Positions 450-9,690 of a stretch of 64,000 bases of DNA are shown here, in pieces. The first letter of the stretch is position 1. Every line of letters starts with the position of its first letter. The notes below the pieces were generated by a model. That model was not told the DNA's origin and searched no databases. It saw only the letters and a program-made list of their open reading frames with translations. Source of the DNA: SAR324 cluster bacterium (lineage in GTDB: Bacteria; SAR324; NAC60-12); NCBI GenBank assembly GCA_015232315.1, contig JADFZZ010000002.1:62001-126000 (forward strand). Direction: 5' to 3'. The position numbers and the translations under genes were made by a program.

Positions 450-2635
450 ATGAGCTTTCGTTTTCAACCAATGAACCATTTATGAATCAATTATCCGGAA
501 TTTTTGAAGAATTGTTTGACACAGCATGGTTCGACAATTTATTGCAAATGCTACTCATCTGTGGTGGCGTCGCGATTTTGGTGATTGTGGTCCGGTGGTG
601 GCATCGACGACTGACCCTGTTTTTGCCGGGATATGCCCGCTGGTATCCTGATTATAGCCGTTTTCTGGAACGCAGTGGCATTCTTCTGGTGATTCTGACA
701 GTCATCCTGGGCTTTCTTGAAACGCACTGGATCATGGTTTTTGTGTTTGGCGGAGCACTGCTGATCAGCCTTGGTCTCGCTTTTCATGAGATCCTGGTCA
801 ATATACTGTCCTATCCTTCGGTCCAGCGTTCCATGAAAGTAGAACTGGGAGATGATGTGGATGTTCTGGGGCAACAGGGCACCATCATAAAAAAAGGAAT
901 GACCCATCTGGTACTGCGCGGAATTCATGGTGAAAAAATTGTGATTCCCAACCGGAAAATATTCTCTGATGTGTTCGCGCATCATGAAAAAGACCATACA
1001 CTGTATCACTTCATGATTGATTTTCCGGTTTTGACCAAACTCAATCTGGGTGCATTGCTGGATTACTGTCAGGAAATCGCACTGCTTTCCGCCTATCGCT
1101 CTCTTGAACACCCCCCCAAAGTCAGTGCTGATTTGAAAGAGGGGAAGGTTTGGATACGCTGTGATTGCTACACAACACGAAAACAGTATGTTGCCCCCTA
1201 TCGCACCTTTATTCTCAAGGAATTATCAGAAAAAACCAGCCTCCTCAGCACGATCTCTCAACAACAAACAGAAGATCAGAACATTAGCTGGAAGCCCATA
1301 AAACTCAATCCATCGTGGGGACCTGACCAAGGTGGATTTTCAGAAAAAGCCCCGTCATTCCAGACCTCCGAAGGATACGATGAAGCAGAAATGACTCAAC
1401 AAGAAGATCAGGAAGCCTCCACAATTGAGTTTTTTAACGATGACGAAGATCCCCCTGAAACCATAATGCTTAAACTACCAACACAGGAAGAAGTTGACGC
1501 GATGGATCTGGATCAACTCAACGAACTCTCCATGTCGGGAAATGAAACGATCATCAACCTGGTGATGGTCGCCTTGGAAAAAAGAAAGAACATGGTTAGT
1601 CCGCAGGCCTCTGACCGCCCACCTTCAACAAAAGAATCCCTGCCCACAGGAAAATTATCGCAGGAATTGATAGATGAGATGAATATTGACCAGTTGAATG
1701 AGTTGATCATGTCCGGTGATGAGCAGGTGCTTTCCATGGCAATGCTTGCTCTGGAAAAATTACAGACAAAAATGCTCAACCAGCCAAATGAAATACTTCC
1801 CTCAACAGAAACCACACTGGTTCCACACCAACCAGCTATGGATTCAGCAAAGAACGCGGACGATTTTTCCGTTCCTGAAGACTCATCATCCCGGGAACCC
1901 ATCCCCGCCTCCCGGGAACAGCCCCATGAAGCAACGGATATTCAAGATCTCAGTGATGTTTTGTCAGACCCGGTTGATTCTACCGCACAGTTTGAGACAT
2001 CCCGTATTCCCGTAGAGACTTATGACCAGCCCTTCGAATCTTTAGACACTCGAGAACAGCAACCTGAATCAGAGGACCTGAGTGAATTTCTGGAGGAGTC
2101 CGTTGCTGACGCAGAACAGCCACCAGAAGACATTCAAGAACAACAAACTGCGTTGGAAGATGCGCGACAACCTGAGTCTGAGAACGAGATTCTGGAGGAG
2201 AATGATGTTGATGAGAAAGAAAGTGGGCATTTGATTGATCAAGAGGCGAATCAGGAGGATGAGCTTCAAAACGATGAGAAGATTGCAAGAGATGCTCTTG
2301 AAGAAATGTCCCCGGTAGTAACAAATATCGACTCAATTTCTCCTGACAATGGTTCGTCCACAGAAAAATTGCTTCTTGATCCGGATGAGGATGACGATGA
2401 ACTATGGTTTGGTGCCGCTAAAAAAACGGATACGGAGGACAACAATGCGGTGCTGGTTCGTAAACTGAAATATGCGCTGGCAAGGTTGGATCAAATGACA
2501 GATCGCCCATCGCCTGACTCTCAGGAAATTCTGGACCTCGCTCTTCTGGTTGAAGAAGCATCTTCCATCCTGGCGCCTAATGACGCTGTTCTGCTTGAGG
2601 CAACCGGCTTATTGTTTGAAAAGATTTATCATTAG
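446..2635 (+). CDS. MscS-like mechanosensitive channel protein with long acidic C-terminal tail
   Basis: Residues about 30-115 hold three hydrophobic segments; the last runs into a pore-lining-like helix. Residues about 130-185 form the MscS beta domain (GDDVDVLGQQGTI, VIPNRKIFS). The family forms tension- or ligand-gated channels of the inner membrane. From about residue 290 the protein departs from the family: a 400-residue, strongly acidic, low-complexity region follows. It includes two copies of a repeat near residues 350-385 and 405-440 (MDLDQLNELSMSG and MNIDQLNELIMSG, each followed by a VALEK/LALEK helix). A short ordered segment (VLVRKLKYALARLDQM) is near the C-terminus. The start overlaps the stop of the preceding ATPase-like gene. 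The channel family call is good; the tail has no known function. Confidence 0.8.
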   Translation: MNELSFSTNEPFMNQLSGIFEELFDTAWFDNLLQMLLICGGVAILVIVVRWWHRRLTLFLPGYARWYPDYSRFLERSGILLVILTVILGFLETHWIMVFVFGGALLISLGLAFHEILVNILSYPSVQRSMKVELGDDVDVLGQQGTIIKKGMTHLVLRGIHGEKIVIPNRKIFSDVFAHHEKDHTLYHFMIDFPVLTKLNLGALLDYCQEIALLSAYRSLEHPPKVSADLKEGKVWIRCDCYTTRKQYVAPYRTFILKELSEKTSLLSTISQQQTEDQNISWKPIKLNPSWGPDQGGFSEKAPSFQTSEGYDEAEMTQQEDQEASTIEFFNDDEDPPETIMLKLPTQEEVDAMDLDQLNELSMSGNETIINLVMVALEKRKNMVSPQASDRPPSTKESLPTGKLSQELIDEMNIDQLNELIMSGDEQVLSMAMLALEKLQTKMLNQPNEILPSTETTLVPHQPAMDSAKNADDFSVPEDSSSREPIPASREQPHEATDIQDLSDVLSDPVDSTAQFETSRIPVETYDQPFESLDTREQQPESEDLSEFLEESVADAEQPPEDIQEQQTALEDARQPESENEILEENDVDEKESGHLIDQEANQEDELQNDEKIARDALEEMSPVVTNIDSISPDNGSSTEKLLLDPDEDDDELWFGAAKKTDTEDNNAVLVRKLKYALARLDQMTDRPSPDSQEILDLALLVEEASSILAPNDAVLLEATGLLFEKIYH

Positions 2636-2654
2636 AGGAGCTTTGGGAAAGGAG

Positions 2655-2838
2655 TAGGATATCCCCATAAAGCCGTGTGTATTGTTACTTTTGTACCTGG
2701 TTAAACCAGGTGGGGTAACGTGTAAAGACATTAGGCTTCCTTTTACGAGAAAGGCCTGCACACCGTCCTCAGGGACAAACCCCGAAGTAATAAAAAAGGT
2801 GCAAAAGTCAGTACCTCACGAGAATTACAGGGATAAAC
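2655..2838 (-). ncRNA. ssrS: 6S RNA (SsrS-type regulator of RNA polymerase)
   Basis: This lies immediately downstream of zapA on the same strand, the usual place of ssrS in Proteobacteria. Read on the minus strand it folds as a long interrupted rod. ACTTTTGCACC pairs with GGTACAAAAGT. Inside that, GGGGT pairs with ACCCC, GTGT with ACAC, and AGGC-CTTT with AAAGG-GCCT, leaving a central open region. The 3' half of that region holds a small perfect hairpin CCTGGTT-t-AACCAGG, corresponding to the small hairpin in the 3' half of the E. coli central bubble. 6S RNA mimics an open promoter and sequesters the housekeeping RNA polymerase. The ends are approximate; the call rests on synteny and manual folding. 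Confidence 0.72.
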
Positions 2839-2848
2839 TGTTTGAAGC

Positions 2849-3154
2849 TTAGCGACTCAAAAGAGCTTTGTCAAGCCGCTCGCAAAGAGTTTGAACAGTT
2901 TCTAACCATTCGCCCTTAACATGATTTTTTTCGTTCTTCAGGGACAGCAATTCATCCGCCAAATTGAGTGAGACCAACAGCGCTAACGTGGTTGGCCCAT
3001 AGGTTTCAGACTGGGAATTGATGTCTAACATTCTTTTGTTCAAAAAGGATTCTACAGAACGAATATGTTCCTCACCATAGGAACTGTTCACGGAAAAACG
3101 GTGCCCATTGATGTTGAGTGTGTATTGTTTAAGTCCAGAAGTTTCAGATGACAT
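2849..3154 (-). CDS. zapA: ZapA, FtsZ-ring stabilising protein
   Basis: 101 residues, the usual ZapA length. The N-terminal globular part (LNINGHRFSVNSSYGEEHIRSVESFLNKRM) matches the family, followed by the helix TTLALLVSLNLADELLSLKNE and a C-terminal coiled coil. ZapA tetramers bundle FtsZ filaments at the division site. It is followed on the same strand by the 6S RNA, the standard proteobacterial arrangement, which supports both calls. No ZapB-like ORF was seen next to it. The divergent gap 3155-3322 should carry the promoters of zapA and of the plus-strand gene; I could not assign clear boxes there. Confidence 0.92.
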   Translation of the reverse strand: MSSETSGLKQYTLNINGHRFSVNSSYGEEHIRSVESFLNKRMLDINSQSETYGPTTLALLVSLNLADELLSLKNEKNHVKGEWLETVQTLCERLDKALLSR

Positions 3155-3322
3155 GAGATTATATATGGCTATTAGTAATACAGGCGGGATGTTGCCTCAA
3201 ATCAACATCTGGGATTTTTAAATTTATTTTTTTTCAAATTGTAGATAACGTGCCGAAAATTATCAGCCTTTATTATACAAATCAATTTGTTTTACCAACA
3301 CCTGATTCACGATAAGGAAAAA

Positions 3323-4135
3323 ATGACGCAGACAAACAGATCTCCCCTGAATGATTCAATGAAACAACAGTTTGGAAGCTTGATTCTTCTGGACCGGATA
3401 ATCAATGAAAAGGAAACGTTTCATCTTTCCCTGATGGAAAAAGATGACAAGATCCTTGAACCCTTTCTACAAACGATGGAAAAGGAAGGTTTGATCGAAA
3501 TAGGCGCCAATGGAAATTATGTGGTAACCGAAAAAGGCAAAGAGACTTATCAGAGACTCATTCAACAACAACTGTCATACACTACCCATTTTGATATTTA
3601 TTCTCATGTGGATCTGGGTGAAGGTTGTTTTGCGGATAAAGAAACCGATTTTCTTGATGACAATCGCTGGACGGATCTGCGTGTCGCAGTTGCGGAATTC
3701 AAAGGAATTGATCCTTATCGGATGGTATTTCTGGCCATGCTGAGCGATGAATCGTTTTTTGAAAATCCGGAATGGAAATTTGATCTGGCAATGGGGACTC
3801 TTTTTGAGGAAATGGAATCGATTGTGCATAATCAGGTCAGTCTTGAAGAACTGGGCTATGAAGATGATGATGGTTCTGTTTCAGGAAACGAGGTTCTGAC
3901 AGATATCATTGAACAGGGTGCGGCCCTCAATCAGCAACGTCAGGAAGAACAACGACAACAGGAACAGGAGGCCGAAAGACTCAATCAGACGTCTCCCGAT
4001 GACGAAATTATAACAACCACAACTTATTATCAGGGGGGATACGGTTATCCCATGTACGATCCCTGGGCCACCATGGGGGCCTATGCGGCCAGTGCCCTGT
4101 TTGTTGAAGCTCTCTGGTATGATCCATACTGGTGA
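3323..4135 (+). CDS. Uncharacterised protein with Tyr/Gly/Trp-rich C-terminus
   Basis: I do not recognise a family. The best start is the ATG at 3323 (270 residues) with AAGGAAA just upstream; an upstream in-frame TTG has no ribosome site. Residues about 1-75 look like a winged-helix segment (FLQTMEKEGLIEIGANGNYVVTEKG in outline). The middle is acidic, followed by a Gln/Glu-rich linker, and the last 35 residues are rich in Tyr, Gly and Trp (YYQGGYGYPMYDPW). It ends 27 bases before the PqqD-like gene on the same strand, so it may belong to that operon. Whether it is a substrate, a regulator or unrelated cannot be told from sequence. Confidence 0.6.
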   Translation: MTQTNRSPLNDSMKQQFGSLILLDRIINEKETFHLSLMEKDDKILEPFLQTMEKEGLIEIGANGNYVVTEKGKETYQRLIQQQLSYTTHFDIYSHVDLGEGCFADKETDFLDDNRWTDLRVAVAEFKGIDPYRMVFLAMLSDESFFENPEWKFDLAMGTLFEEMESIVHNQVSLEELGYEDDDGSVSGNEVLTDIIEQGAALNQQRQEEQRQQEQEAERLNQTSPDDEIITTTTYYQGGYGYPMYDPWATMGAYAASALFVEALWYDPYW

Positions 4136-4413: not shown

Positions 4414-5460
4414 ATGACAACAAAAAAAAAGTTGGTAGTGGGCATTTCCGGAATGAATGCTGTGGACAATCCTGGTCCAGGCGTTGGCGTGGCCCGCAGT
4501 CTCAAAGAAGATCCTGCTCTTGATGTCCGTGTCGTGGGGCTATGCTACGATGCCATGGAACCCGGAATTTATATGGACTGGTTGGTTGATCGCTCCTTCA
4601 TGGTTCCCTATCCTTCCAATAATCCGGAGGCCCTGTTTGACCGTTTGGCCTATATCAAACATGCTTATGGACTGGATTTTTTACTGCCAACCCTGGATGT
4701 GGAACTTCCGGTTTACATCAAATATCAGGAACAGCTTGAAAAAATGGGCATTCACGTCTTTTTACCGTCTATGGATCAATTCAAGTTACGTGGCAAAGAT
4801 CTGCTCCCTGAACTGGCCAAAAACATCGGCATCCATTGTCCCCGTACCGCAAGTGTCAATTCACTGGACGCCCTTGTTGAAGCTCTCGACACCATCCAGT
4901 TGCCTGTGATGATCAAGGGGGTCTATTACAAAGCCTATTATGCCTATACCACACAGGAAGCCATCGGTCACTATCATCATGTTGTCGCTGAATGGGGATA
5001 TCCCGTCATCGTACAGGAGATCATTCAGGGGGATGAACTGAATCTGGTTGGCGTCGGCGATGGCGAAGGAAACTCGCTGGGATGCGTTCAGATTAAAAAA
5101 ATGTGGATCACCGCCCTGGGAAAAATCTGGACCGGTGTTTCGATCAAAAATCAGGCGATGCAAGATGCTGCTGAAAATTTTTTAAAGCATTACAAATGGA
5201 AATCAGCCTTTGAACTCGAATGCATCGTTCGTGACAATGAATTATATTTGATTGAGATCAACCCCAGATTTCCCGCATGGTCTTACTTTGCCACAGGACT
5301 TGGCGTCAATTTACCCTCCAATCTTATCCATTCGGCCATGAACTGGCCTGTTCCACAAAACATGGCTTATGACGCGGGTAAATTATTTATCAGGTACACC
5401 TACGAACTTATTACAGACATGCTTCCCTTTCAAAAAATCACCACCACGGGTGAAGTCTGA
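4414..5460 (+). CDS. ATP-grasp ligase of unknown substrate
   Basis: The ATG at 4414 directly follows the PqqD stop, so translation is probably coupled; this gives 348 residues. An N-terminal Rossmann-like part (VVGISGMNAVDNPGPGVGVA) is followed by an ATP-grasp domain from about residue 110. Motifs visible are LRGKDLLPELAKNIGIHCPRT, the phosphate-binding VMIKGVYYKAYYAY region, the adenine region IVQEIIQGDELN, and the metal-binding LYLIEINPRFPAW. It resembles carbamoyl-phosphate-synthase-type ATP-grasp enzymes, which join a carboxylate to an amine or other nucleophile through an acyl phosphate. Since it sits between an RRE protein and an amino-acid-type decarboxylase, I infer a small amide-bond-forming pathway. 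The substrate cannot be read from the sequence. Confidence 0.8.
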   Translation: MTTKKKLVVGISGMNAVDNPGPGVGVARSLKEDPALDVRVVGLCYDAMEPGIYMDWLVDRSFMVPYPSNNPEALFDRLAYIKHAYGLDFLLPTLDVELPVYIKYQEQLEKMGIHVFLPSMDQFKLRGKDLLPELAKNIGIHCPRTASVNSLDALVEALDTIQLPVMIKGVYYKAYYAYTTQEAIGHYHHVVAEWGYPVIVQEIIQGDELNLVGVGDGEGNSLGCVQIKKMWITALGKIWTGVSIKNQAMQDAAENFLKHYKWKSAFELECIVRDNELYLIEINPRFPAWSYFATGLGVNLPSNLIHSAMNWPVPQNMAYDAGKLFIRYTYELITDMLPFQKITTTGEV

Positions 5461-5486: not shown

Positions 5487-6839
5487 GTGAAAAAAACTTA
5501 CGAAAAACCGTCTATTGTCAAACTCCAGAGCGGGTTGATGAACAAATTTGGCAGCAGTCCCGCCTATGCCAGAAAAATCAGAACCCACATTGACAATGTC
5601 TCCATAGAAGCATTGATTGCGACTCATGGTAGCCCGCTCTTTGTGTTCTCTGAAAAAAAACTCCGGGAACAATATAAATCCATCTATCAGGCTTTTTCCA
5701 CACGCTATCCCAAGGTGACTCTGGGCTGGTCTTATAAAACCAATTATCTTCAGGCCATTTGTGCTGCCTTGCACCAGGAAGGTGCCATTGCGGAGGTGGT
5801 GTCAGCGTTTGAATATGAAAAAGCCAGAAAGCTTGGCGTCAAGGGAGATAAAATCATCTTCAATGGTCCGCATAAATCTTTCAAGGCTCTGCAAAAAGCA
5901 GTGGATGAACGCGCCATGATCCATATTGATCATCTGGATGAAATCTATGACCTGGAAAAAATTGCCCAGAGCACAGGACGTACCGTTCCAGTGGCGATCC
6001 GGTTGAATATGAACACCGGAATTTATCCGCAATGGTCCCGCTTTGGTTTCAATGTTGAGTCAGGACAAGCACTGGATGCCGTAAAAAGAATTGTTTCCGG
6101 AAAAAAACTCATCATCAATGGACTGCATTGTCATATCGGAACATTCATCATGGACCCCGAAGCCTATGCCAGGCAGATTCAAAAAATGGTAGAATTTGGC
6201 TATAAGCTTCAGGATGAATTTGGAATCCGGATCGAATATTTTGATATTGGCGGGGGGTTTCCTTCCAAAAACAGACTGAAAGGCACCTATCTTCCGCCAG
6301 AAGTATCGCTCTCCGCGGTTGATGTGTATGCGGAAAAAATCACCACAGCTCTGTATCATGCGCTGAAACCGGGAGACATGCCCCATTTATACCTTGAAAC
6401 AGGACGGGCCATTGTGGATGAGGCCGGTTATCTGATCACCACCATCACTGCCGGAAAGCGTTTGCCCGATGGTAGAAAAGCCTATATCGCGGATGCGGGA
6501 GTGAATCTGCTGTTCACGGCGTTCTGGTATAAATTCAATATTGAAATTGACCGGGAAGTTCAGGGAATGAACGAAGCCGCTGTCATTTATGGCCCGCTCT
6601 GCATGAACATTGACGCCATTGATGAAGGAACGATGATTCCACCGCTTAACCGTGGAACCAGACTGATTATTTCACCGGTTGGCGCCTACAACCAGACACA
6701 ATCCATGCAATTTATTGAATACCGTCCAGCGTCAGTCATGATCAGCGAATCCGGAGAAATGGAACTGATCCGTGAAGCAGAAGATCTGAGCGACATTGAA
6801 CGCAGAGAAAAATTACCGGATCGTCTCAAAATTGTATAA
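5487..6839 (+). CDS. Fold-type III PLP decarboxylase (LysA/SpeC2-like) with leader-like N-terminus
   Basis: GTG start at 5487; 450 residues. An alanine-racemase-fold decarboxylase: PLP lysine in GWSYKTNY (Lys84), GLHCHIGTF, FDIGGGFP, LETGRAIV and the C-terminal catalytic Cys in YGPLCMNIDA. This fits the diaminopimelate/ornithine/carboxynorspermidine decarboxylase superfamily. Before the catalytic domain there are about 40 extra residues. They begin MKKTYEKPSIVKL, which matches the YxxPx(L/I)xxL pattern of lasso-peptide leaders bound by RRE domains. An RRE-type PqqD protein is encoded two genes upstream. I infer that it recruits this enzyme, or that the N-terminus derives from a precursor peptide. 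The enzyme's substrate is unknown. Confidence 0.82.
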   Translation: MKKTYEKPSIVKLQSGLMNKFGSSPAYARKIRTHIDNVSIEALIATHGSPLFVFSEKKLREQYKSIYQAFSTRYPKVTLGWSYKTNYLQAICAALHQEGAIAEVVSAFEYEKARKLGVKGDKIIFNGPHKSFKALQKAVDERAMIHIDHLDEIYDLEKIAQSTGRTVPVAIRLNMNTGIYPQWSRFGFNVESGQALDAVKRIVSGKKLIINGLHCHIGTFIMDPEAYARQIQKMVEFGYKLQDEFGIRIEYFDIGGGFPSKNRLKGTYLPPEVSLSAVDVYAEKITTALYHALKPGDMPHLYLETGRAIVDEAGYLITTITAGKRLPDGRKAYIADAGVNLLFTAFWYKFNIEIDREVQGMNEAAVIYGPLCMNIDAIDEGTMIPPLNRGTRLIISPVGAYNQTQSMQFIEYRPASVMISESGEMELIREAEDLSDIERREKLPDRLKIV

Positions 6840-6878: not shown

Positions 6879-8990
6879 ATGCCTTTTCAAAAAGTAATTT
6901 ATCCTTTCATTCAAAAAACCCATATCAGGACTATTTTAAACAGTTATTCTGAAATTCTGTTTCTGAATAATCCCCGCGTCGGATTGTTGCTGTTTGCCGC
7001 GACAATCATTAGCCCCAACACGGCTGTTTCCGGATTGATTGCCGTATTATCCGCCTACTTGTTTGCCCGATTTATCGGCATTCACAATGTGTTTTTGAGT
7101 TCCGGTTTTTATACCTACAATGCCCTGCTGGTCGGACTTTCAATCGGTGCCCTGTTCAGGCTGGGACCACTCACTGTTTTTTTGTTGCTAAGTCTTGGTA
7201 TTTTAACCTTCATTGTCACCAATGTGCTTTCCAACATTTTTTCGTATTACTTCAAACTTCCCATTTTGAGCCTGCCGTTTGTGATTGTGAGTTCCATCGC
7301 CTATCTTGCGGTCAGGCAGTATGCGGAACTGTTTGTAATCAGTTTGTACCCTCATGATTTCTCGTCATTCTCCATTCCTGTACCGTACTGGATCGAAGGG
7401 TATCTTCAGTCAATGGCAACCATTCTGTTTATGTCCTCCTCTCTGGCCGGACTCCTGTTCGCCGGATTGATTTTATTCACTTCGAGGATTCTGTTTTTTC
7501 TTTCGCTACTGGGATATTACGTTGGCACCGTCATCAAAGGACTCATGACAGGTTCCATGATTCTGGCATTTGCCAACCACAATCATTTTAACTTTATTTT
7601 AATCGCAATGGCACTGGGAGGCGTTTTTCTGATTCCATCCATGAAAAGTTATGTGCTGTGTATCATTGCTGTTGGAATTTCTACCATTTTTCTGGATGCG
7701 ATGCAGATTTTCTGGGCCAATTTCGGAATTCCCGCATTCACCCTGCCATTCAATATCATCTCTCTTGGATTGATCTATGTTCTGGGCGTTCTCAACTTCC
7801 CGCTCATCAGTAGACAAATCAAGGCCACGCCTGAAGAAACCCTGGACCATTATCTTTCGCGCCAGTTAAGATTTCAAGGATACGGTTACACCTTGTCTCT
7901 GCCTTTTTCCGGAGAATGGACCGTCTGGCAGACGTTCAACACCAACTGGACTCATCAGGGGGCATGGCAGTATGCTTATGATTTTGTGATCACAGATGAC
8001 AAAAATAATACACACAGCAAGGAAGGACAGGCTCTGGAAGACTATTTCGCCTACAAAAAACCTGTATTGTCTCCAGTCCGTGGCACCGTCACCCGGGTGG
8101 TAAACCATCTGCAGGACAACGCACCCGGGCAGACGGACTCCACCAACAACTGGGGCAATCTGGTTGTGATTCAGGACTACCGTGGATTTTTTGTAGAAAT
8201 TTCACATTTTGCGTTCAACTCCATTCAGGTCAAACCGGGTTCATGGGTTGAATGTGGATCGTATATCGGACTCTGCGGCAATTCAGGATATTCACCTCAA
8301 CCGCATATCCATGTTCAGGTTCAGGCGACTGAAGAAGTAGGCAGCACCACCCTTCCCTTCAGTTTTGTGAACTATATTCAGGACCATCAATATCATGCCA
8401 ATCATCTCCCCTCAGAAAAAGCCCGCATAGCACCGCTACACAAAGATATGTCGCTTGAGACAAAAACCAGTTTTATCCTGGATCAGGAATATCAATATGA
8501 AGTATGGAAAGCCGACAAAAAAATTGATCACTTTTCATTGATTGTAAAAATGGCTCTGGATGGATCTTTTTATTTCCAGTCTGATAAAGCAAAGTTGTAT
8601 TTCGGACAATATGAAGGCACATTCTACCTGTATCACATTGACGGCGATGATCCATATTTGAAGCTTCTCTTCATGGCTATACCCAGAATGCCGCTGAATT
8701 TTCAGGAAAAACTGGCATGGGAGGATTATATGAATGTCCGCACCATGTTCGGGAAAACAGCAACAGCCATGATTCTGCTGTTGAGTTCGTTTTCACACCG
8801 CTTGAGCCAGATTCATGCAACCTACCGATTTCTGGATAAAATAACCATTGAAGGCCTGGTGAAATCGACAATCTGGCGCAAACAATACCGAACACGTCTT
8901 GAATTGGATGAGGTCCGGGGATTCCATTATATTTGCGTCAATGACATTGAATTAAAAAAAATCAATCCTTCACTTGCAAAACAAAGCTAA
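6879..8990 (+). CDS. Urea-transporter-like membrane protein fused to M23 peptidase
   Basis: 703 residues, ATG at 6879 with AAAGGG upstream. Residues about 1-315 are strongly hydrophobic, with ten or so membrane segments, and resemble the bacterial urea transporter (UT) family (NNPRVGLLLFAATIISPNTA; FYTYNALLVGLSIG). Residues about 335-500 are an M23/LytM metallopeptidase domain with zinc ligands recognisable in THQGAWQYAYDF (His, Asp) and PHIHVQV, plus an SHF motif. A 200-residue C-terminal domain is unassigned. M23 enzymes cleave peptide cross-links or bonds in small peptides. UT-M23 fusion is a rare architecture. In this operon it could move a small amide across the inner membrane and process it outside, which is inference. 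Confidence 0.82.
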   Translation: MPFQKVIYPFIQKTHIRTILNSYSEILFLNNPRVGLLLFAATIISPNTAVSGLIAVLSAYLFARFIGIHNVFLSSGFYTYNALLVGLSIGALFRLGPLTVFLLLSLGILTFIVTNVLSNIFSYYFKLPILSLPFVIVSSIAYLAVRQYAELFVISLYPHDFSSFSIPVPYWIEGYLQSMATILFMSSSLAGLLFAGLILFTSRILFFLSLLGYYVGTVIKGLMTGSMILAFANHNHFNFILIAMALGGVFLIPSMKSYVLCIIAVGISTIFLDAMQIFWANFGIPAFTLPFNIISLGLIYVLGVLNFPLISRQIKATPEETLDHYLSRQLRFQGYGYTLSLPFSGEWTVWQTFNTNWTHQGAWQYAYDFVITDDKNNTHSKEGQALEDYFAYKKPVLSPVRGTVTRVVNHLQDNAPGQTDSTNNWGNLVVIQDYRGFFVEISHFAFNSIQVKPGSWVECGSYIGLCGNSGYSPQPHIHVQVQATEEVGSTTLPFSFVNYIQDHQYHANHLPSEKARIAPLHKDMSLETKTSFILDQEYQYEVWKADKKIDHFSLIVKMALDGSFYFQSDKAKLYFGQYEGTFYLYHIDGDDPYLKLLFMAIPRMPLNFQEKLAWEDYMNVRTMFGKTATAMILLLSSFSHRLSQIHATYRFLDKITIEGLVKSTIWRKQYRTRLELDEVRGFHYICVNDIELKKINPSLAKQS

Positions 8991-9069: not shown

Positions 9070-9690
9070 ATGAAACGATGTATATTTTCACTGTTGATCT
9101 GGATGATTGCATTGACTTCACTGGCGCAAGCTGAAAGCTGGATTCAGGAAGCCTATTATCGCTCCTACAGTTATGAAAAAATTCAGGATTATGACAATGC
9201 CCTTAAAACATTGATGCCGGTGTATCAGAAGTATCCTGAGGGATACAACGTGAATTTGAGATTTGGATGGATTTATTACTTGAAGGGCGCTTATGCCAAC
9301 GCTCTCGAGCATTATCAGAAGTCGATAGCCGCCGCGCCTTATTCTGTGACCGCGAAACTCGGACACACACTGCCGTTGATGGCACAACAGAAATGGGAGC
9401 AGGTCACCCAGGAATTGTATGAGGTAATCAATACCGACTACTATAATTATTATGGAAATCTGCGGTTGATCTATGGACTCAGAATGCAGAAAAAATTTGA
9501 TCTGGCAGAAAAAGTGATTTACAAAATGCTCCTCATATATCCGACTGATATCTCTCTGCTCACAGAACTCCTGCTGATCAGACTCACGAATGAGCAACAG
9601 AGTGAAGCAGAAAAAATCGCCACTGATCTTTTGATTCTTGACCCCGAAAATATCATCGCCAAGGGCTTTTTCCAGACTAACCCCAACTAA
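9070..9690 (+). CDS. Secreted tetratricopeptide (TPR) protein
   Basis: 206 residues. A signal peptide is visible (MKRCIFSLLIWMIALTSLAQA). It is followed by TPR-like helix pairs: YEKIQDYDNALKTLMPVYQKYPEGY, LRFGWIYYLKGAYANALEHYQKSI and a degenerate third near KKFDLAEKVIYKMLLIYPTD. TPR proteins are scaffolds. It lies 80 bases after the UT-M23 gene on the same strand and may be the last gene of that operon. The A/T-rich gap 8991-9069 contains no clear terminator. No enzymatic motif is visible. Confidence 0.75.
   Translation: MKRCIFSLLIWMIALTSLAQAESWIQEAYYRSYSYEKIQDYDNALKTLMPVYQKYPEGYNVNLRFGWIYYLKGAYANALEHYQKSIAAAPYSVTAKLGHTLPLMAQQKWEQVTQELYEVINTDYYNYYGNLRLIYGLRMQKKFDLAEKVIYKMLLIYPTDISLLTELLLIRLTNEQQSEAEKIATDLLILDPENIIAKGFFQTNPN

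Follow-up and report, generated by a model that had tools for sequence, protein, structure and literature searches.

PqqD and the N-terminal tail of a PLP-dependent decarboxylase as a candidate RRE-leader docking pair outside RiPP biosynthesis

Overview

A PLP-dependent decarboxylase encoded in the window (the whole stretch of DNA that was analysed, 64,000 nucleotides) begins with a short tail that carries the recognition motif of a peptide leader. The motif is conserved, the tail co-occurs with a PqqD-family protein and is lost where PqqD is missing, and this PqqD has the RRE fold with pocket residues that match those of leader-binding relatives. On balance, we favor a model in which PqqD grips the decarboxylase's own tail and docks the enzyme to a partner ATP-grasp ligase. 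As far as can be judged from sequence, such a system would work like the RRE-leader pair of lasso peptide pathways without being a member of them, as the lasso cyclase, the leader peptidase and the leader spacing are not met.

The conserved operon

The original prediction placed an RRE-type PqqD two genes upstream of the decarboxylase, and this holds: the protein matches PF05402 and an ATP-grasp gene lies between the two (Table 1). The order pqqD, ATP-grasp, decarboxylase is found at every locus with enough upstream DNA, the ATP-grasp gene always sitting in the middle; five of the 83 loci end at a contig edge before pqqD and are not informative on upstream order. The ATP-grasp ligase, the decarboxylase, the urea-transporter/M23 protein and the TPR protein are conserved operon neighbors. 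Among the sampled species genomes, the operon occurs in 38 of 398 Pseudomonadota, 42 of 136 Aquificota and 34 of 395 Bacteroidota (phyla as assigned to the centre genomes). The pathway is widespread and has not been studied, and its PqqD is often the only one in the genome. Spread by plasmids was considered and rejected, there being no plasmid match.

Table 1. Operon features in window coordinates
Feature	Position	Strand	Basis or remark
pqqD, PqqD-family discrete RRE, 82 aa	4163..4411	+	Pfam PF05402 match, fold, groove residues
ATP-grasp ligase, carbamoyl-phosphate-synthase-like (PRK12767 type)	4414..5460	+	domain matches, gene order
PLP-dependent decarboxylase, alanine-racemase fold, 450 aa	5487..6839	+	GTG start
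Decarboxylase N-terminal tail, residues 1-22, MKKTYEKPSIVKLQSGLMNKFG	5487..5552	+	translation, conservation, disorder
Variable linker, residues 23-30, from tail to catalytic domain	5553..5576	+	model, alignment
Urea-transporter-family membrane domain fused to an M23 peptidase-like domain	6879..8990	+	conserved operon, follows decarboxylase
TPR-repeat protein with signal sequence	9070..9690	+	frequently the final gene of the conserved operon

Some loci depart from this arrangement in detail. Most orthologues of the urea-transporter/M23 protein retain an HxH motif and a preceding histidine (SHF or SHL). The protein of the window has QYAYD at the place expected for the HxxxD zinc motif and may, because of this replacement, be inactive as a peptidase. 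In many operons (L006, L007, L014, L018, L033, L036) a gene of about 290-310 aa, with a signal sequence and the look of a beta-barrel protein, lies between the transporter and TPR genes; it is absent at that place in the window. A Thermovibrio contig (L024, positions 167-917 and 2517-3846) has a second pqqD and a partial ATP-grasp gene upstream of a complete operon, which is either a partial duplication or an assembly artefact.

The N-terminal tail of the decarboxylase

Translation confirms the motif residues Tyr5, Pro8, Ile10 and Leu13 that had been read from the decarboxylase N-terminus, as well as the remark that the glycine comes two residues late: Gly16 stands at Tyr+11, against Tyr+9 in the lasso pattern. 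The tail is made of two blocks, a recognition block Y5xxP8xI10 and a second conserved block G16xxN19K20F21G22. It had been placed 40 residues before the catalytic domain, which is roughly right, since the AlphaFold model is ordered from about residue 31 (the catalytic part mostly at pLDDT >90) and the Pfam decarboxylase match begins at residue 67. The tail itself is predicted to be disordered, with a pLDDT of 39-58 and no secondary structure. A motif that is short, conserved and set in a disordered segment speaks for a docking peptide. Searched directly against PDB chains, the tail gave no hit.

Conservation was followed in 83 distinct tails, which were gathered by a scan of one genome per species and by profile searches in three phyla, and in a second analysis of about 60 further loci that partly overlap the first set. 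One pattern of the collection scan was derived from the N-terminus itself; the whole-protein profile searches agree with it. The tails come from more than ten phyla, among them Aquificota, Verrucomicrobiota, Lentisphaerota, Ignavibacteriota, Calditrichota, Campylobacterota, Pseudomonadota, Bacteroidota, Gemmatimonadota, Nitrospinota and Thermodesulfobacteriota, and the identity between whole decarboxylases falls to 46%. The orthologue check that accompanied the original prediction thus has a clear outcome: [Y/W/F]xxPx[I/L/V/M/F] is present in all 83 orthologous tails, 41-44 residues ahead of the catalytic GSP motif, with Phe rare as the first residue and Met rare as the last. Pro8 is invariant (4.32 bits) and is written with all four codons. 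The information at the remaining positions is 3.76 bits for Asn19, 3.63 for Gly22, 3.37 for Phe21, 3.24 for Tyr/Trp5, 3.21 for Lys20, 3.17 for Gly16 and 3.11 for Ile10; in the linker beyond residue 22 it is only 0.7-1.6 bits. At position 20, Accumulibacter and others have T, S, A, P or R instead of Lys, and in Campylobacterales the second block has shrunk to SKAG. The conservation of G..NKFG is not explained by RRE binding alone and could equally mark a modified site.

A single occurrence of the motif, taken as sequence, means little, as the chance rate is about 2%: among the other long ORFs of the fetched loci, six of 259 (2.3%) have it within their first 30 residues, and so do five of 67 six-frame ORFs taken without filtering from the window. 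What chance does not account for is its presence at a fixed place in all 83 tails, with a proline that never varies and is written with four codons. A constraint at the nucleotide level (a gene overlap or ribosome site) was rejected in view of the same use of four proline codons and of a reading that is kept over many phyla.

PqqD has the fold and pocket of lasso-type RREs

RiPP pathways use RREs as domains that bind peptides, and the W/Y/LxxP motif of the ligands is already known (PMC12710340). The PqqD of the window scores 39.8 bits against PF05402 (curated cut-off 23.4). Assignment to the PqqD of PQQ biosynthesis was rejected (TIGR03859, 18.9 bits against a cut-off of 46; no pqqE-like gene in the operon). 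When a profile of 61 operon PqqDs is compared with solved chains, TfuB1 comes first (E 4.5e-10) and TbiB1 next (3.7e-9). The AF2 model (pLDDT 88) has the three-stranded sheet and three helices of the RRE fold, and in a fold search with this model the leader complexes of TfuB1 and TbiB1 occupy ranks 1-6, ahead of true PqqD.

In the model, the predicted leader cleft lies between beta strand 26-29 and helix 62-78, and its groove residues are N31, D68 and F72, found in 72, 61 and 76, respectively, of the 79 PqqDs of the paired set. They correspond, with equal spacing, to N33, D70 and F74 of LppB. In LppB, the kink that the leader makes at its proline is fixed by Asn33, Phe74 separates the pockets from each other, and Asp70 forms a hydrogen bond with the tyrosine of the leader. 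In PbaB1, which is of the Trp type, Gly42 takes the position of Asn33 and Gln79 that of Asp70 (PMC13381572). Trp in place of Tyr is a known leader variant for such RREs (PMC12710340; PMC13381572). In the TfuB1 complex, the YxxP motif and a Leu of the leader are bound in a hydrophobic cleft, and leader residue Phe-6 helps to form a patch for the next enzyme (PMC6784204). The PqqDs of one proteobacterial group (L088-L104, L107, L108, L119), which mostly go with Trp tails, are extended at the N-terminus by a segment in which LPW(E/K/Q) is conserved; this may be a second docking motif, for a different protein of the operon.

Coupling of tail and PqqD

The genome to which the window belongs has one PqqD-family gene and one copy of the tail, and of 25 other genomes that were searched, 15 gave just one PqqD match. 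One member of the decarboxylase family, L114 in genome G116, has no tail and begins directly at the catalytic part. Its neighborhood (G116:C72) is unrelated, with a large WD40-repeat protein upstream and neither pqqD nor the ATP-grasp gene, and a search of genome G116 for PqqD found none. As L114 is nested inside the Trp-tail clade on the tree, tail and partner were probably lost together; its place there is unsure, for it sits on a long branch. Beside the WD40-repeat protein, L114 seems to have been recruited to another system.

A prediction was set from LppB and PbaB1: Asp68 should be needed with a Tyr tail and be free to change with a Trp or Phe tail. In the first set of pairs, every Tyr tail goes with Asp68 (42/42), Trp tails go with Asp in 19 cases and with Gly, Ala or Ser in 17, and the only Phe tail goes without it (0/1). 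In the second set, drawn later from Aquificota and Bacteroidota, Tyr tails again always go with Asp68 (54/54) and Phe tails never (0/5; Tyr, Tyr, Tyr, Ser and His instead); one of these Phe pairs is from the same genome as that of the first set. All losses of D68 in the 79 pairs are thus in Phe- or Trp-tail pairs. On a 57-row tree, position 68 changes at least six times, always in non-Tyr lineages, which account for roughly one quarter of the branch length. These changes trace back to two independent losses of Asp, and two events are too few for significance in an independent-pairs sign test. The coupling agrees strongly with the prior prediction and, because it rests on two losses, is suggestive only; it is neither proof nor formally significant. 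Other PqqD columns correlate equally with Tyr versus Trp because the clades differ, and the half of the Trp-tail pairs that keep Asp68 count against a strict coupling.

The decarboxylase and its relatives

Orn_Arg_deC_N and Orn_DAP_Arg_deC domains place the enzyme in the alanine-racemase-fold family. The PLP lysine K84 and the catalytic cross-dimer Cys372 are invariant, so that, on the evidence of these residues, the decarboxylase should be active. Its nearest solved relative is the N-citrylornithine decarboxylase FslC/FigC (7kh2, E 7e-92), and BtrK (7ru7, 2j66) is also among the solved relatives. Alignments with the related solved decarboxylases start no earlier than profile position 22, so these enzymes lack the tail, and the other decarboxylase homologue of the same genome has neither tail nor operon neighbors.

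Two familiar identities were tried and rejected. Against the LysA model TIGR01048 the enzyme scores 217 bits, below the cut-off of 297.9, and the DAP-binding CES reads CMN. In LysA, the Glu of the CES motif binds the far amino group of DAP. With a score below the cut-off and CMN for CES, the decarboxylase is not LysA. It is not FslC either (NF041039, 214.8 bits against a cut-off of 500), and the operon has no NIS synthetase. Several members of the clade of FslC/FigC, SbnH, AcsE, MccE and BtrK act on conjugated amino acids (PMC7857480). What the substrate might be here is a guess by analogy with these nearest characterised relatives.

Lasso and precursor peptide readings

The tail was originally described as a lasso-type leader. 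The description is right as to the motif, [Y/W]xxPx[L/V/I/F/A]; it fails for a lasso leader in the strict sense, because the operon has no cyclase or peptidase and the glycine spacing differs. A lasso cyclase (asparagine-synthetase-like) and a leader peptidase B2 were sought among the operon proteins without success. The leader Gly at Tyr+9 and a penultimate Thr are not found in the tail, where the Gly at Tyr+11 is followed by N-x-F-G and no Thr is conserved.

Of the two explanations that had been offered, a precursor fused to the enzyme is not supported, since nothing core-like is conserved except G..NKFG and the genome has no separate copy of the tail. The other, that the enzyme itself is the tethered partner, is supported by the co-occurrence with PqqD, the joint loss, the kinship with lasso RREs and the pocket residues, in the absence of binding data. 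A separate precursor peptide was rejected as well; the genome has no second tail copy, and within the operon no small gene that is conserved came to light. Of the short ORFs in the fetched loci, 34 bear the motif, and most look antisense or out of frame; one, described next, looks like a real precursor. No natural fusion of PqqD with the decarboxylase was noticed.

In one delta-proteobacterial genome (L070, positions 1213-1329 and 1495-1767, both on the minus strand), an ORF of 35-38 aa, MKYEKPKITTYTEEEIAAIIGPAQTYNSFMEDELG, lies beside a different PqqD-like protein and a radical-SAM-like gene. Sharing the YEKPxI motif, it is probably a genuine RiPP precursor that belongs to a different PqqD, and the pair would be a useful positive control.

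Proposed mechanism and its alternatives

In the proposed mechanism, the ligand of the RRE would be the disordered N-terminal tail of the decarboxylase and not a peptide precursor. The tail would join the RRE sheet as its fourth strand. Tyr5 would occupy the first pocket, its hydroxyl directed to Asp68, Pro8 would pack against Phe72 and be held by Asn31, and Ile10 would lie in the second pocket. G..NKFG would stay free to contact a third partner; NKFG may form a patch for the ATP-grasp ligase in the way that Phe-6 of the TfuB1 leader does for the next enzyme. The RRE would thus be an adaptor that docks decarboxylase to ligase. As the ATP-grasp ligase always adjoins, the simplest reading, which is an inference, is that the ligase acts first and the decarboxylase second, the two being joined via PqqD. 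The ligase would make an amino acid conjugate that is handed on for decarboxylation, and the product would then probably be moved by the operon's membrane protein. The parts of this mechanism are not equally secure. Physical binding of PqqD to the tail is inferred without binding data, and we are nearly convinced of it. Given binding, docking to the ATP-grasp ligase is also an inference and only slightly favored over its absence. The ATP-grasp ligase is the most likely third partner on gene order alone.

For butirosin, the ATP-grasp BtrJ loads a carrier protein, BtrI, and the glutamyl group is decarboxylated by BtrK. By the same logic the tail, alone or with PqqD, could tether the substrate as BtrI does. 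The constant presence of an ATP-grasp partner, BtrK among the solved relatives and a clade that includes enzymes acting on conjugated amino acids (PMC7857480) all fit, but the tail has no invariant attachment residue (Lys20 varies, and there is no conserved Ser or Cys), so we regard a carrier role as very improbable. The tail may instead be unrelated to PqqD, an internal element such as an oligomer contact, lid or autoinhibitor in which YxxP arose by convergence, while PqqD serves an unseen precursor. The chance rate of a lone YxxPxI leaves room for this, and AlphaFold without partners cannot exclude that the tail folds on assembly. What makes it improbable is that [Y/W]xxPx[I/L/V], with W for Y, is the exact pattern of PqqD/FusE-type RREs, that tail and PqqD disappear together, that the pocket residues match and Tyr goes with Asp, and that neither a second tail copy nor a conserved small gene was seen.

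A further possibility is that the tail is a true leader followed by a core. PqqD would then present G..NKFG for modification by the ATP-grasp or another enzyme, and the decarboxylase would be a protein-sized RiPP substrate, modified in a maturation or self-cofactor step. In its favor, the conservation of the second block (N19, F21 and G22 at 3.4-3.8 bits) equals that of the RRE-binding block, and ATP-grasp enzymes are known as RiPP ligases, those of the graspetides (PMC8939145). However, the block has no single invariant nucleophile (Lys20 is replaced, and Campylobacterales have SKAG), the ATP-grasp is carbamoyl-phosphate-synthase-like and is not matched to the graspetide ligase model, and PMC8939145 names PqqD only in passing and no decarboxylase. 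We consider this possibility unlikely, and retain docking by PqqD as the preferred reading.

Significance for discrete RREs

With its model for discrete lasso-type RREs, RRE-Finder detects almost 8,000 proteins, and only about 4,000 of them adjoin lasso enzymes (PMC7470986). The ligands of the remaining discrete RREs are an open question, and for one group of them the operon offers a specific ligand that can be tested, an enzyme's tail. It is an evenly balanced matter whether the RRE-leader pair serves, outside RiPP biosynthesis, as a docking device of general use that brings two metabolic enzymes into one complex, and whether this explains part of the large set of discrete RREs that lack any RiPP partner. 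If true, it would show a leader living on a folded enzyme and provide a natural docking tag for engineering; it suggests that a grip of peptide maturation has been reused to hold metabolic enzymes together. We found no report of an RRE with the tail of a metabolic enzyme as its ligand, nor of the operon, in a literature search that did not cover preprints and most subscription papers.

Comparison with known systems

The lasso RREs TfuB1/FusB1 (6jx3) and TbiB1 (5v1u, 5v1v) share with the operon PqqD the fold, the groove, the Asp pocket residue and a YxxPx(L/I) ligand. In contrast, theirs is the leader of a short precursor, with a peptidase and a cyclase as partners, whereas here a 450-residue enzyme bears the ligand, the glycine of which lies two residues further on, and an ATP-grasp enzyme is the partner. 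LppB and PbaB1 (9x8z, 9x90; PMC13381572), from the LPP and paeninodin pathways of Bacillota, tell Tyr-type from Trp-type recognition at the equivalents of N33 and D70, and in the operon PqqD the D70-equivalent position also varies with the tail residue; their ligands are peptide precursors of 35-200 aa and not an enzyme tail.

On the side of the enzyme, FslC/FigC (7kh2; PMC7857480) likewise has C-M where DAP decarboxylase has C-E, but it has no N-terminal tail, its partner is an NIS siderophore synthetase, and the described pathway has no PqqD. The BtrI/BtrJ/BtrK system resembles the operon in that an ATP-grasp enzyme and a related PLP decarboxylase work on a conjugated amino acid; it differs in using an acyl-carrier protein where the operon has an RRE and a tail.
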